A stretch of DNA of 64,000 nt from Falsirhodobacter flavus (GTDB lineage: Bacteria > Pseudomonadota > Alphaproteobacteria > Rhodobacterales > Rhodobacteraceae). Position numbers and translations under genes: made by a program. Positions 2,880 through 56,998 of this stretch are shown here, piece by piece. The stretch lies in contig JARWBI010000001.1 of NCBI GenBank assembly GCA_029846755.1, positions 930,001-994,000 of the forward strand, in the 5' to 3' direction. Below the pieces are notes generated by a model. It did no database searches, had not been told where the DNA came from, and saw nothing but the letters and a program-made list of their open reading frames with translations. Each line of letters begins with the position of its first letter. Position 1 is the first letter of the stretch.

Positions 2880-2904
2880 AACGCAGCGGGCTTGTCACGG
2901 TTCC
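2880..2904 (-). promoter_or_regulatory. EcfG-type general-stress promoter for the CsbD-like gene
   Basis: On the minus strand GGAAC (2904-2900) is followed after exactly 16 nt by CGTT (2883-2880), the consensus of alphaproteobacterial EcfG sigma factors. The start codon lies about 25 nt further on, with AAGGAG in between, so the expected leader is about 18 nt. The -35 element overlaps the stop region of the upstream binding-protein gene. Confidence 0.7.
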
Positions 2905-4709
2905 TGCCACCACGTCTCGGGCATGAAGCCGGGCCAGTCGCCATAAAGCGGCACATGCCCCGGATGGCGCAGGTCGCCGCGATAGGCGACGCGGGACACC
3001 TTGGAATACCAGAACGGCACCACGAAACGCCCGGTCATCAGGATGCGGTCCAGCGCCTCGGTCGCGCTTCGGAACTCGTCCGGTTCCCGGGCGCGCAGCA
3101 TTGCGGCGATCATCGCATCGGCGGCGGGCGACATCATCCCCATCAGGTTGCGCGATCCCGGCTGGTTGGCCCCTGCGGACCCCCAGTAGAGCACCTGCTC
3201 GGTTCCCGGCGAAAGCGAAAGCGCGCGCAGGATATGGGTCATGTCGAAATCGAAATTGGTCGTTCGTTCTTTGTATTGTGCGGAATCGACCGATGTGATC
3301 CGCGCCTCGATGCCCAGCCGCTTCAGCGCCTCGACATAGATCTGCGTGACGGTCGCGACCTGATCGTTGCCCTGTTGCAGCAGAACCTCGAACGCGAAAG
3401 GCTTGCCATCGCGGGTCAGAACGCCTTGTTCGACATGCCATCCGGCTTCTTCAAGAAGACGCATGGCGCGGCGAAGGTTCGCACGCTGCGCCCCCGCGCT
3501 GTCCTGCGCGGGCAGGGCATAGCCATCCAGCGCGCCGGGTGGCAGGCTGTCTCTATAGGGCGTCAGAAGATCCACGACGCCCTTCGAGGCAGCCGCGCCG
3601 GGGATCATGCCAAGATCGGAATTGGCGAAATAGGAATCGATCCGCGGTTCGACCCCGCCCGTGATCGTCTGGTTTATCAGCTTGAAGTCGAAGGCCAGAA
3701 TCAGTGCCTCGCGCACACGCCAGTCGTCGAACATCGGGCGGCGGGTGTTCATCACCAGCCCCTCCATCCCCGAGGGGCGGCGATGGGCGATCTCCTCCAG
3801 CTTCACGCCGCCGCTGCGGACGGCGGGGAAGTCGAAGTTGATTGCCCATCTGGCGGGGTTCAGCTCGCGCCACAGGGACAGGTTGCCGGACTTGAACGCC
3901 TCGAACATCACCGACGTGTCGGCATAGAATTCGGTGCGGATCGTATCGAAATTGTAGATCCCGCGATTGACCGGCAGATCGCGGCCCCACCAATCGGGGT
4001 TGCGGCGATAGGTGACCGAGCGCCCGGGATCGACGCCGTCGACCACATAGGGGCCGGAACCGATGGGCGGCTCGAGTGTGGACTGGGTGAAATCCTTCCC
4101 CTCCCACTGCGCCTTCTTCAGCACGGGGCGCAGGCCGAGCACCAGCGGCAGTTCGCGGTCGGGTTCGGTGAAGGTGAAGCGGACCGAGCGCGGGCCGGTG
4201 CGAAGCGTCTCGGCCACCTTGGACCACGACCCGGCATAGCGGGGCTGCCCGTCGGCGGCCAGGGTTTCGAACGACCAGATCACGTCATCGATCGTCACGG
4301 GCGATCCGTCCGAGAATCGCGCACCCTCGCGCAGGGTGAATTCGACGAAAGTTCTTGCGTCATCTGTCAGGACCGATTCGGCAAGCAGTCCGTAAAGCGT
4401 GAACGGCTCGTCCAGCGACCGTGCCATCAGGGTCTCGACCGTCCATGGTCCAAGGTTCCAAGGCGCACGACCGCGGATGATATAGGGGTTAAGCGAATCG
4501 AATCCGCCCGCTTCGCCGATTGCGATGGTGCCGCCCTTGGGCGCAGCGGGATCGGCATAGGGCAGGTGGTCGAAATTCGCAGGCAGGGCAGGTTCACCAT
4601 ACATGGCGATGCCGTGGGAAGGCTCTGCAAAGGCGGGCCAGGCGCCGGTCAGAAGGCCCGCCGCCGTGATGATGGCCTTCAAATGCCCCTGTATTTCCAC
4701 CCTCAGCAA
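2895..4709 (-). CDS. Extracellular solute-binding protein, family 5 (YejA-like, peptide type)
   Basis: This 604-residue periplasmic protein resembles YejA and other large oligopeptide-binding proteins of ABC importers. An N-terminal hydrophobic segment ends in AWPAFA-EP, a signal-peptidase I type site near residue 28. The mature part starts HGIAMYGEPALPANF, characteristic of the YejA branch, and contains the family 5 stretch LREGARFSDGSPVTIDDV. Known relatives deliver peptides to the YejBEF transporter, but no permease or ATPase gene lies near, so this is an orphan binding protein here. I use the first ATG of the signal peptide; GTG and TTG codons shortly after are alternatives. A vegetative-type promoter is visible about 40 nt upstream. 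Confidence 0.82.
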   Translation of the reverse strand: MLRVEIQGHLKAIITAAGLLTGAWPAFAEPSHGIAMYGEPALPANFDHLPYADPAAPKGGTIAIGEAGGFDSLNPYIIRGRAPWNLGPWTVETLMARSLDEPFTLYGLLAESVLTDDARTFVEFTLREGARFSDGSPVTIDDVIWSFETLAADGQPRYAGSWSKVAETLRTGPRSVRFTFTEPDRELPLVLGLRPVLKKAQWEGKDFTQSTLEPPIGSGPYVVDGVDPGRSVTYRRNPDWWGRDLPVNRGIYNFDTIRTEFYADTSVMFEAFKSGNLSLWRELNPARWAINFDFPAVRSGGVKLEEIAHRRPSGMEGLVMNTRRPMFDDWRVREALILAFDFKLINQTITGGVEPRIDSYFANSDLGMIPGAAASKGVVDLLTPYRDSLPPGALDGYALPAQDSAGAQRANLRRAMRLLEEAGWHVEQGVLTRDGKPFAFEVLLQQGNDQVATVTQIYVEALKRLGIEARITSVDSAQYKERTTNFDFDMTHILRALSLSPGTEQVLYWGSAGANQPGSRNLMGMMSPAADAMIAAMLRAREPDEFRSATEALDRILMTGRFVVPFWYSKVSRVAYRGDLRHPGHVPLYGDWPGFMPETWWQEP

Positions 4710-4744
4710 TGCCCCACGCCCCCGATCCTGTCTCTGGCGGCGCG

Positions 4745-4772
4745 AAACTAGACGCTACGCCAGCCATTTCAA
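4745..4772 (-). promoter_or_regulatory. Sigma-70-type promoter for the YejA-like gene
   Basis: On the minus strand TTGAAA (4772-4767) and TAGTTT (4750-4745) are 16 nt apart. Transcription would begin near 4738, about 28 nt before the start codon. It is back-to-back with the promoter of the candidate small RNA. Confidence 0.45.
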
Positions 4773-4781
4773 ACTTTTAAC

Positions 4782-4810
4782 TTGGCCCCGGGCATGTGGA
4801 GAGGTATAAA
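4782..4810 (+). promoter_or_regulatory. Sigma-70-type promoter of the candidate small RNA
   Basis: TTGGCC (4782-4787) and TATAAA (4805-4810) are separated by 17 nt. No open reading frame of note follows before the intrinsic terminator at 4864-4892, so the expected product is a short untranslated transcript. Confidence 0.5.
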
Positions 4811-4815
4811 GACCT

Positions 4816-4892
4816 CACTGCTCGATAGGTTTCTTGCCTGTATGAAACCTGCCTCAACAACTTAACGCTGGCCTCGTGCCAGCGTTTTTTTA
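4816..4892 (+). ncRNA. Candidate intergenic small RNA, about 75 nt
   Basis: Between the divergent binding-protein gene and bdhA lies a complete transcription unit: promoter, a hairpin AGGTTTC (4827-4833)/GAAACCT (4844-4850) with a 10-nt loop, an unpaired CT/CA-rich linker, and a strong intrinsic terminator. No conserved protein is encoded. This is the layout of many trans-acting bacterial sRNAs. I do not recognise it as a named family. The alternative is a 5' leader of bdhA with an attenuator, but the terminator is strong and bdhA has its own ribosome binding site well downstream. Confidence 0.5.
4864..4892 (+). terminator. Rho-independent terminator
   Basis: A perfect 9-bp stem AACGCTGGC/GCCAGCGTT with a 5-nt loop (CTCGT) runs directly into a T-tract. 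It ends the candidate small RNA and separates it from bdhA. Confidence 0.85.
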
Positions 4893-4953
4893 TTCCCGCA
4901 CCAGCCTGCGCCGGGGTTACCTTGGACGGCAAGCCAAACGCAAGGGGGTGGGC

Positions 4954-5724
4954 ATGTTGCAAGGCAAACGGGCGATCGTCACGGGATCGAATTCCGGCAT
5001 CGGGCTGGGCGTTGCGGTCGAGCTGGCCAGGGTGGGGGCGGATGTCGTCCTGAACTCCTTCACCGACCGGGACGAGGATCACGCGCTGGCCGCGAAATTA
5101 GCGGCGGATCATGGCATCAAGGCGCGCTATATCGCGGCGGACATGTCGAAGGGCGCCGACTGCCGCGCGCTGGTGGAAAAGGCTGGCGGCTGCGACATCC
5201 TCGTGAACAATGCGGGCATCCAGCACGTCGCCGGGATCGAGGAGTTTCCGGTCGAGAAGTGGGACGCGATCCTCGCGATCAACTTGTCGTCAGCCTTCCA
5301 TACCATCGCTGCCGCCCTGCCGGGAATGCGCGCGCAGGGCTGGGGGAGGATCGTCAACATCGCTTCGGCGCATGGGTTGACGGCCAGCTCCTACAAATCC
5401 GCCTATGTCGCGGCGAAACACGGGATCGTCGGTCTGACCAAGACGGCGGCACTGGAATGTGCCGGGCAGGGCATCACCGCCAATGCCATCTGCCCCGGCT
5501 ATGTGCTGACCCCGCTGGTCGAGGCGCAGATCCCCGACCAGATGAAGAAGACCGGCAAGGACCGCGAAACCACCATCCGGGAGGTCATGCTCGACCGCCA
5601 GCCGTCGAAGCAATTCGCGACGGTGGAGCAGGTGGGGGGCACGGCGGTGTTCCTGTGCTCGCCCGCCGCCGACCAAATCACCGGCACCACCATCAGCGTG
5701 GATGGTGGCTGGACGGCGCTATGA
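4954..5724 (+). CDS. bdhA: 3-hydroxybutyrate dehydrogenase (SDR family)
   Basis: This 256-residue short-chain dehydrogenase interconverts D-3-hydroxybutyrate and acetoacetate with NAD, as in polyhydroxybutyrate use. The Rossmann motif TGSNSGIG lies near residue 11, NNAG near 86, and the catalytic set is S in NIASAHG followed by YVAAK. The stretch GIQHVAGIEEFPVEKWD is typical of bacterial BdhA rather than of generic SDRs. It ends in the conserved SVDGGWTAL. I start at MLQGKRAIVTG, preceded by AAGGGGGTG; a longer frame upstream runs back into the terminator and is not coding. It converges with psuG, overlapping by 6 nt. A polyhydroxybutyrate synthesis cluster is not present in the window. Confidence 0.88.
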   Translation: MLQGKRAIVTGSNSGIGLGVAVELARVGADVVLNSFTDRDEDHALAAKLAADHGIKARYIAADMSKGADCRALVEKAGGCDILVNNAGIQHVAGIEEFPVEKWDAILAINLSSAFHTIAAALPGMRAQGWGRIVNIASAHGLTASSYKSAYVAAKHGIVGLTKTAALECAGQGITANAICPGYVLTPLVEAQIPDQMKKTGKDRETTIREVMLDRQPSKQFATVEQVGGTAVFLCSPAADQITGTTISVDGGWTAL

Positions 5725-6633
5725 CCGCGCGCTGATTTCCAACGCGATATCAGCGGCAAGGCGGGCGTTGTTCAGAACCAGCTGGATGTTGGAATCCAGC
5801 GACCGCCCCTCGGTCAGACGGAAGATGCGGTCCAGCAGGAAGGGCGTCACCTCCTTGGCGGCGATGTGCTGCTGCTCGGCGTCCTTCACCGCGGATGCGA
5901 TGACCGGGTCGATCTCGGACCGGGGGATTTCGTGCTCGGCCGGGATCGGGTTGGCGATCAACTGGCCGCCCGGCAGGCCAAGGCGGGCGCGCATCAGATG
6001 TGCCTCGGCAATCTGGGTTGCCGTATCCATCCGCAAGGGTGCCTTGATCCCGCTTTCGCGCGACCAGAAGGCGGGCAGGTCGTCCTGACCGAAGGCGATG
6101 ACCGGCACGCCATTCGTCTCCAGCACCTCCAGCGTCTTGGGGATGTCGAGGATTGCCTTCGCCCCCGCCGCCACGACCGTCACCGCCGTCGCGCCCAGTT
6201 CCGGCAGGTCGGCGGACACATCGAACGTCGTCTCGGCCCCGCGATGCACGCCGCCGATGCCGCCCGTTGCGAACACCGCGATCCCGGCCAGCTTGGCGCA
6301 GATCATCGTTGCGGCCACCGTCGTCGCCCCCACGCGCCCCGAGGTGAGGCCCACCGCCAGATCGGCGCGCGACAGTTTCATCGCATCCGGCGACTGGCCC
6401 AGACGGTCAAGCTCCGACGCCGTCAGCCCGACATGGATGCGCCCGTCAAGAATTGCGATGGTCGCAGGAACCGCGCCGCGTTCGCGGATCGCATCCTCGA
6501 CCGAGCGGGCCATCTCGACGTTCTGCGGGAAGGGCATCCCGTGCGTGATGATCGTGCTTTCCAGCGCAACGACGGGCCGGTTCGCGGCCAGCGCTTCGGC
6601 CACTTCGGGCAGGATGGTCAAGGGTGCGGTCAT
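5719..6633 (-). CDS. psuG: Pseudouridine-5'-phosphate glycosidase
   Basis: PsuG cleaves pseudouridine 5'-phosphate to uracil and ribose 5-phosphate, the second step of pseudouridine salvage. The 304-residue length is the family norm. It opens with PVVALESTIITHGMPFPQN and contains GGIGGVHRGAETTFDVSADL, both hallmark segments of the family. The start ATG overlaps the stop of psuK in an ATGA, so kinase and glycosidase are translationally coupled in one operon. It overlaps the convergent bdhA by 6 nt. No pseudouridine transporter gene is adjacent. Confidence 0.93.
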   Translation of the reverse strand: MTAPLTILPEVAEALAANRPVVALESTIITHGMPFPQNVEMARSVEDAIRERGAVPATIAILDGRIHVGLTASELDRLGQSPDAMKLSRADLAVGLTSGRVGATTVAATMICAKLAGIAVFATGGIGGVHRGAETTFDVSADLPELGATAVTVVAAGAKAILDIPKTLEVLETNGVPVIAFGQDDLPAFWSRESGIKAPLRMDTATQIAEAHLMRARLGLPGGQLIANPIPAEHEIPRSEIDPVIASAVKDAEQQHIAAKEVTPFLLDRIFRLTEGRSLDSNIQLVLNNARLAADIALEISARS

Positions 6634-51681: not shown

Positions 51682-53265
51682 ATGACTGACTGGCAGGCCC
51701 TGCGCGAATATCACGAGATGGTCGCGGACCGACCGATCCTGACCCTGTTCGACGATAATCGCGCGGCGGAGTTTTCGGTTTCCGCCGATGGGCTGCTGCT
51801 GGATTATTCCAAGACCAATATCGACGCCAAGGCGCGCGATCTGCTGATCGGGCTGCTGCGCGATCTGCCGGTGAAACGCGACGCGATGTTCTCAGGCGCG
51901 AAGATCAACGAGACCGAGGGCCGCGCGGTCCTGCATACACTGCTGCGCAACATGAACAGTGATGTGACCGTGAATGGGGCCGATGCGACCGTGGCGCTGC
52001 GCGAGACGCATGCGGCGATGCAGGCCTTCGCCCGCGACGTGCGGGGCGGGGCATTCAAGGGGCAAGGCGGCGCGATCACCGATGTGGTGAATATCGGCAT
52101 CGGCGGATCAGACCTTGGCCCCGCGATGGCGACGATCGCGCTTGCGCCCTATGCCGACGGGCCGCGCTGCCATTTCGTGTCGAACGTGGACGGCGCGCAT
52201 ATCCATGACGTGCTGGACGGGCTGAACCCGGAAACGACGCTGGTCATCGTCGCATCGAAAACCTTCACCACCATCGAGACGATGACCAATGCGGAAACCG
52301 CCAAGGCGTGGATGGCAAAGACGGTGAAAGACCCGGCGGCGCAGTTCGCTGCCGTTTCGACCGCGGCGGACAAGACTGCCGCCTTCGGCATCGACGCCTC
52401 ACGCGTCTTCGGGTTCGAGGATTGGGTCGGCGGACGCTACTCCATGTGGGGGCCCATCGGCCTGTCGCTGATGCTCGCCATCGGCCCCGAGGATTTCGAC
52501 CAATTCCTTGCCGGCGGCGCCGCGATGGACGCGCATTTCCGCCATGCTGCGCCCGAGGACAACCTGCCCGTGATGCTGGCACTGGTGGGCATCTGGCACA
52601 ACCAGATCTGCGGCTATGCCACCCGCGCTGTCCTGCCTTACGAGCAGCGGCTGGCACGGCTTCCGGCTTATCTGCAACAGCTGGAGATGGAATCGAACGG
52701 CAAGCGCGTCGCGATGGACGGCAGCGACCTTTCCATCCATTCCGGCCCCGTGGTGTGGGGAGAGCCGGGGACCAACGGCCAGCATGCCTTCTATCAGCTG
52801 ATCCATCAGGGCACGCGGGTGATCCCCTGCGAATTCCTTGTCGGAAAGGAAGGCCACGAGCCGGATCTGGCCCATCAGCACCGTCTGCTGGTTGCCAATT
52901 GTCTTGCGCAGTCCGAGGCGCTGCTTCGTGGCCGCTCCTTGGCACAGGCAACGGCGATCATGCAGAAGAAGGGGTTGGAGGGGGCCGAACTGGAACGTCA
53001 GGCGCGGCACCGGGTCTTTCCGGGCAACCGCCCTTCGACCACGCTCTGCTATCCCAAGCTGACCCCCTTCGTGCTGGGCCAGATCGTCGCGCTTTATGAA
53101 CACCGGGTCTTCGTCGAGGGAGTGGTGCTGGGCATCAACTCCTATGACCAATGGGGGGTGGAACTGGGCAAGGAACTGGCGCTGGCGCTGGCACCGATGC
53201 TGGAGGGCGCTCCCTCGGACGACAAGGACGGCTCGACTCGCGCGCTGATCGGCTATCTGGCCTAG
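51682..53265 (+). CDS. pgi: Glucose-6-phosphate isomerase
   Basis: Pgi interconverts glucose and fructose 6-phosphate. The 527-residue protein has the PGI signatures: [38 protein letters not shown] and the C-terminal [15 protein letters not shown]. Catalytic Glu and His lie within [10 protein letters not shown] and [15 protein letters not shown]. It is the last gene of the zwf operon. Its stop shares CTAG with that of the convergent RidA-type gene. Confidence 0.96.
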
Positions 53266-56908: not shown

Positions 56909-56998
56909 TGGCGGAGAGACAGGGATTCGAACCCTGGGTCGGCTCACACCGACAACGGTTTTCGAGACCGCCGCATTCGACCACTCTGCCACCTCTCC
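56909..56998 (-). tRNA. tRNA-Ser(CGA)
   Basis: On the minus strand the sequence folds into a 90-nt type II tRNA. It has acceptor stem GGAGAGG/TCTCTCC, D-arm with AGAGTGGTCGAATG, anticodon loop CTCGAAA with anticodon CGA, long variable arm, T-arm GGTTCGAATCC, discriminator G and an encoded CCA end. It reads UCG serine codons. A37 follows the anticodon, a substrate for MiaA, which is encoded in this window. Apart from this tRNA, its promoter and the kinase terminator, the 306-nt stretch 56864-57170 holds nothing I can identify. Confidence 0.96.

Follow-up and report, generated by a model that had tools for sequence, protein, structure and literature searches.

A predicted stand-alone small RNA gene with a nearly fixed 40-nt 5' half, conserved across the Rhodobacteraceae

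The intergenic region between a solute-binding protein gene of the SBP_bac_5 type and bdhA in Falsirhodobacter flavus holds a locus that is best explained as a stand-alone small RNA (sRNA) gene, whose RNA of about 74 nt would be transcribed, bound by Hfq and paired in trans with several mRNAs; we assign this reading a probability of roughly 0.7. Comparison among genomes of the family shows a putative promoter that belongs to the locus itself and is conserved, a nearly fixed unit of 40 nt that starts at the predicted +1, and a terminator in which pairing is kept, while transcription, Hfq binding and trans pairing of the RNA are what we infer.

The locus occupies positions 4817 to about 4890 on the plus strand of the window, the 64,000-nt stretch of contig JARWBI010000001.1 that was analysed (Table 1). 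Its layout is the one that a sequence-only reading had described beforehand. The putative promoter TTGGCC-N17-TATAAA is present with its 17-nt spacer, and its motif is conserved across the family; the terminator, which had been put about 55 nt past the promoter, has its stem 53 nt from TATAAA and consists, as described, of a GC-rich 9-bp hairpin (six G-C pairs, loop of 5) followed by a T-tract of seven, and both the additional hairpin and the C/U/A-rich linker were found in between. The predicted +1, A4817, lies at a sharp edge of conservation 6 nt past the -10 hexamer. Just 5' of the -35 element, CAAACTTTTA may act as an UP-like element or be where some regulator binds.

Table 1. Positions in the window of the predicted sRNA gene, its parts and the neighbouring genes.
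Feature	Position	Strand	Remarks
Family 5 extracellular solute-binding protein gene	2895..4709	-	Pfam SBP_bac_5, 221 bits; start codon uncertain
Conserved upstream promoter element CAAACTTTTA	4770..4779	+	44 to 57 of 60 identical per column
-35 element TTGGCC	4782..4787	+	conserved as CTTGG from 4781
-10 element TATAAA	4805..4810	+	columns 1-4 identical in 53 to 58 of 60
Predicted sRNA, about 74 nt	4817..4890	+	start at conservation edge; end from terminator
40-nt invariant block	4817..4856	+	no change in 56 of 60 family genomes
5' hairpin, 7-8 bp	4827..4850	+	arms 4827-4833 / 4844-4850; 10-nt loop UUGCCUGUAU at 4834-4843
C/U/A-rich single-stranded linker GCCUCAACAACUU	4851..4863	+	6 nt at its start never vary (60 of 60)
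Intrinsic terminator	4864..4891	+	stem 4864-4886; T-run 4885-4891 (seven Ts)
bdhA, 3-hydroxybutyrate dehydrogenase	4954..5724	+	TIGR01963, 360.9 bits (cut-off 307)
Indigoidine_A (psuG-like) protein gene	5719-6633	-	adjoins bdhA

Taken as a single sequence, the promoter and the terminator are not beyond chance. A consensus scan of positions 3800-6200 counted no sigma-70 promoter, because position 6 of the second hexamer is not the T that the scan demands. The same 2.4 kb contain one terminator against 1.5 expected from shuffles. The predicted fold of 4817-4891 is stable (z = -4.07). It is the comparison with other genomes that lifts the locus far above chance, and on this ground we regard it as real.

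The conservation counts rest on 60 family sequences that were found by DNA similarity and not selected by any pattern. A DNA search with a 126-nt query gave one match each in 60 of 61 family genomes, the sole genome without a match being 74% complete, and none in 40 genomes from outside the family (21 of these not itemised). Loss of the region beside retained flanking genes is thus not the pattern encountered, but its opposite. A 35-nt core occurs in single copy and without mismatch in 124 of 125 Paracoccus genomes, including all 113 of good quality (the sole miss is 71% complete), and likewise without mismatch in 7/7 Falsirhodobacter genomes. The four family sequences in which the 40-nt block is not identical differ from it by 1, 1, 1 and 6 changes. 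Conservation drops at both edges of the block, except for the promoter parts CAAACTTTTA, CTTGG and TATA, and the combined promoter motif (CAAACTTTTA, -35, -10) is found exactly once per genome, at this locus, in each of the seven Falsirhodobacter genomes, compared with one match in total over all seven for the reversed motif. At least 117 stretches matched in a pattern scan of named genomes; among the matches listed are Ruegeria pomeroyi, Roseobacter, Sulfitobacter, Rhodovulum, Haematobacter and Neomegalonema.

A covariance model built from the homologous loci, a check that the sequence-only reading had proposed, matches the window locus at 4817-4895 with 100.4 bits and separates the family from its surroundings: in a class-wide sample of 385 genomes the five family genomes listed reach between 100 and 104 bits, whereas 16 non-family genomes match weakly, at 32.5 bits or less. 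Eight of these weak matches were examined (26.5 to 32.5 bits) and five were aligned; none of the five contains the 40-mer, what they share is mainly the terminator and the linker, and two of them also have a hairpin, with few letters in common.

The two stems of the predicted RNA have evolved very differently. In the covariation alignment (A1, 33 of 59 distinct sequences, hand-picked for diversity) both sides of the terminator stem have changed in 27 cells, where shuffles gave 8.7 (0/500), and such changes occur in all six counted pairs, so that its letters drift while pairing is kept; a T-run of seven or more is present in 59 of the 60 family sequences. In the 5' hairpin six of seven pairs never vary, so that covariation speaks neither for nor against this stem. 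A simple sRNA that carries seeds would not usually have a stem so fixed and lacking covariation, and this RNA stands out for how long its invariant part is.

At family cut-offs, Rfam 15 has a single match in the window, a tRNA at 56912-56998 (-), and none at the gathering score in 12 orthologous loci. Elsewhere in the window, 51682-53259 (+) encodes a homolog, 82% identical (tblastn), of a glucose-6-phosphate isomerase-like protein of genome G003, a name read from the sequence. The best sub-threshold Rfam match of the locus is SorX (RF02784), whose 73-nt model likewise comprises a 5' hairpin, a C/U-rich linker and a terminator. Identity with SorX was rejected: the score is 18.9 bits against a cut-off of 46.6, the locus is absent from the SorX-model matches at E <= 0.001 in the window's own genome (G000), and the true SorX lies elsewhere, at G000:C22:211946 (75.6 bits) and at G057:C4:2598225, the latter (G057, R. 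sphaeroides 2.4.1 coordinates) in agreement with the 2,598,224 given in the accessible text of PMC6238624. On chromosome 1 of G057 the predicted RNA itself runs on the minus strand from near 1,444,071, its 5' end, to about 1,443,998 (locus L021), a position that differs from those in the same accessible text for SorY (1,632,642), UpsM (694,720), PcrZ (2,565,820) and RSs1624 (1,724,505), and these four were rejected as well. At 43.6 bits, just below its cut-off, the SorX model also matches the place of SorY (G057:C4:1632636-1632725), and several genomes have other loci that it matches; a relationship between SorX and SorY is possible.

StsR (RSs0827) was suggested by its size and promoter type, being according to the accessible part of PMC8307010 a family-wide, independent gene of 72 nt with a terminator. 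This candidate was rejected too: the probe p-0827, as given in the accessible part of PMC3688512, has a single match in G057, at C4:858073-858092, about 586 kb from the predicted RNA, with which StsR has no sequence likeness. StsR nevertheless provides a yardstick. It was found in 48 of 101 genomes, and in the 30 of these with orthologs whose loci were available its longest invariant run is 13 nt, compared with 31 nt for the predicted RNA, in which 39 of the 40 block columns are invariant across the same 30 genomes. The invariant 13-nt core of these StsR orthologs (L272-L301), TGTCCCTCGTTCC, is likely a pairing seed; the ortholog in the window's own genome lies at G000:C44:228829.

The claim that the RNA is undescribed stood in part. 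It has no Rfam 15 match, and no description was found in the article texts reached on R. sphaeroides, R. pomeroyi and family-wide sRNAs; an unnamed entry in a supplementary sRNA list may exist. The main texts of the R. pomeroyi (PMC4809877) and P. denitrificans (PMC5107571) lists, as far as accessible, contain no certain match. For R. sphaeroides the accessible text of PMC8625941 counts 79 sRNAs, 38 of them orphan, so the RNA may be among the listed ones to which no function is assigned. One candidate for the same RNA is the P. denitrificans transcript 'intergenic 60', which the accessible part of PMC5107571 describes as intergenic, 80 nt long, very abundant and located at 1,384,880-1,384,960 (+), and as conserved in many Rhodobacteraceae, with Sphingomonadales matches also listed; its size and abundance fit, its spread roughly so. 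The core was found at these coordinates in 0 of 125 Paracoccus genomes, among which the strain itself apparently is not. The RNA may already sit, without a name, in published RNA-seq lists, and its position suggests an old R. sphaeroides name of the form 'RSs13xx'. One name of this form, 'RSs1368' (reportedly from Berghoff 2009), was not found in the literature searched.

How such an RNA might act is suggested by its build. The putative promoter of its own and the intrinsic terminator with a U-tail are those of an Hfq-type sRNA, and a terminator with a U-tail is the usual build of sRNAs that depend on Hfq; the hairpin and the accessible segments are further likenesses to the Hfq-dependent trans-acting sRNAs. 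Because the layout matches this type, pairing in trans is our best bet. The RNA of about 74 nt would be transcribed from its own promoter, Hfq would bind the U-tail and the A-rich linker, and pairing in trans with several mRNAs would involve the loop UUGCCUGUAU, whose stem would open along with it, the GCCUCA linker and the 5' end, which does not vary; these segments could cover Shine-Dalgarno sequences. Many targets constraining one and the same 40-nt stretch would explain why the stem lacks base-pair swaps. On the other hand, the RNA differs from the Hfq-dependent sRNAs in that 40 nt are frozen, the stem included, and in that a target screen found none.

This screen covered 374 orthologous genes in two genomes, took accessibility into account and used 15 shuffled decoys, and it gave no excess for the real RNA: five genes reached -8 kcal/mol against a decoy mean of 7.8, and 21 reached -6 kcal/mol against 32.9, the real RNA staying under the decoy mean at each threshold that any gene reached. 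Since the screen spans an estimated eighth of a genome, with crude start codons, it leaves room for targets. Target prediction with the loop and linker, as the sequence-only reading had proposed, was likewise without success: near-exact 13-nt complements exceed the reversed control (12 vs 6 and 21 vs 6, self matches removed), but no site in a 5' region recurs beyond the near-identical pair G000/G004, and the screen stays below its decoys. Two lead sites are present in both screened genomes, namely ACAGGCAAGA before a SPOR-domain-like gene (L345 near 19179 (-), L390 near 15586 (-)) and AGGCAAGAAAC in codons 3-6 of a PpiD/SurA-like gene (L322 near 10948 (-), L395 near 13673 (+)), both gene names being read from the sequence without a family search. 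They are complementary to the RNA without mismatch over 10 and 11 nt but do not rise above the decoys and mean little, because the best score of 12 of the 15 decoys equals or beats about -8.9. A pstS leader site seen in one genome was rejected as not conserved. Duplex energies with the leaders of the neighbouring genes gave mean z values against mononucleotide shuffles of -0.78 for the solute-binding protein (165 loci), a value inflated by leader stretches that run into the RNA gene in some loci, -0.13 for bdhA (132 loci) and +0.50 for the psuG-like gene (53 loci).

The neighbourhood of the locus bears on several other explanations. Of the 60 family loci, 58 have the solute-binding protein gene in divergent orientation at no more than 400 nt, and 38 have bdhA on the same strand no more than 600 nt downstream; the sRNA locus is retained in the other 22, where bdhA is not close downstream. 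For five of the seven Falsirhodobacter genomes the stretch examined showed no bdhA, and the psuG-like gene there lies directly beside the RNA, facing it; in a few loci neither the solute-binding protein gene nor bdhA was found nearby, and the former was not found near the locus in L057, L078, L085, L096, L101 and L108, among others. Independence of the predicted sRNA gene from its neighbours is thereby strongly supported, in line with the sRNA of about 75 nt, encoding no protein, that the sequence-only reading had proposed; that it acts in trans, as this reading also held, is probable. One could regard the RNA as a cis-acting leader or attenuator of bdhA, with the 40-nt block as a sensor and the terminator as the gate for read-through, and the frequent position of bdhA as well as the resemblance of an invariant domain ahead of a terminator to a riboswitch layout would agree with this. 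However, the RNA is not simply a leader, because it is kept where bdhA does not adjoin, and of 23 loci, by a crude picking, 12 have their first downstream open reading frame on the opposite strand and eight on the same one, with no such frame found in three. Moreover, the block is fixed while the letters of the terminator drift freely, which means that no conserved alternative pairing connects the two. Both observations make a bdhA leader or attenuator very unlikely as a general role.

A slightly smaller chance still is given to a DNA operator, the inverted repeat AGGTTTC-N10-GAAACCT being the site from which a bound transcription factor acts on the divergent solute-binding protein gene. The dyad is perfect and the divergent gene is nearly always there, but the invariant block lacks symmetry, its first letter is the predicted +1 and a terminator that covaries comes after it; the block also occurs in loci in which that gene was not found nearby (L057, L078, L085 and others). 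The least probable explanation is a tiny open reading frame (MKPAS...), for which we see hardly any chance. An NTG at RNA position 26 is kept in all 60 sequences (ATG 58, TTG 1, GTG 1), but a short in-frame stop is present in just 37 of them and the tails differ, third codon positions are no less invariant than the rest, and no Shine-Dalgarno sequence lies at the usual distance; as the stop is not kept, the peptide is unlikely, and the earlier statement that no protein is encoded agrees with this.

Alternatively, the RNA might be a protein-binding, sponge or housekeeping RNA, its whole 40-nt 5' half being frozen as one unit that is recognised by one protein or one abundant RNA, not used as mRNA seeds, and that docks onto a single essential partner in every Rhodobacteraceae cell. 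Letters of the stem that are frozen as well as its pairing would fit such a role, as would 39 invariant columns compared with the 13-nt run of StsR, which pairs with mRNA and sRNA, and the missing mRNA target signal in the screen. Then again, that signal was sought in just 374 genes of two genomes, and the terminator and U-tail speak for the usual Hfq sRNA. We consider docking onto a single partner unlikely, at about the odds of a long shot; if true, it would constitute a new kind of lineage-specific housekeeping RNA.

Among the Rhodobacteraceae are the Roseobacter group, Paracoccus and R. sphaeroides, a model for photosynthesis. An RNA that is kept almost letter for letter in nearly every family genome searched, under tighter constraint than StsR, must be important to the family as a whole, and it is probably a regulatory RNA. 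Why 40 nt, those of the stem among them, are held so firmly is a question that can be tested, and the predicted position in R. sphaeroides allows an immediate check against existing transcriptome and Hfq data.
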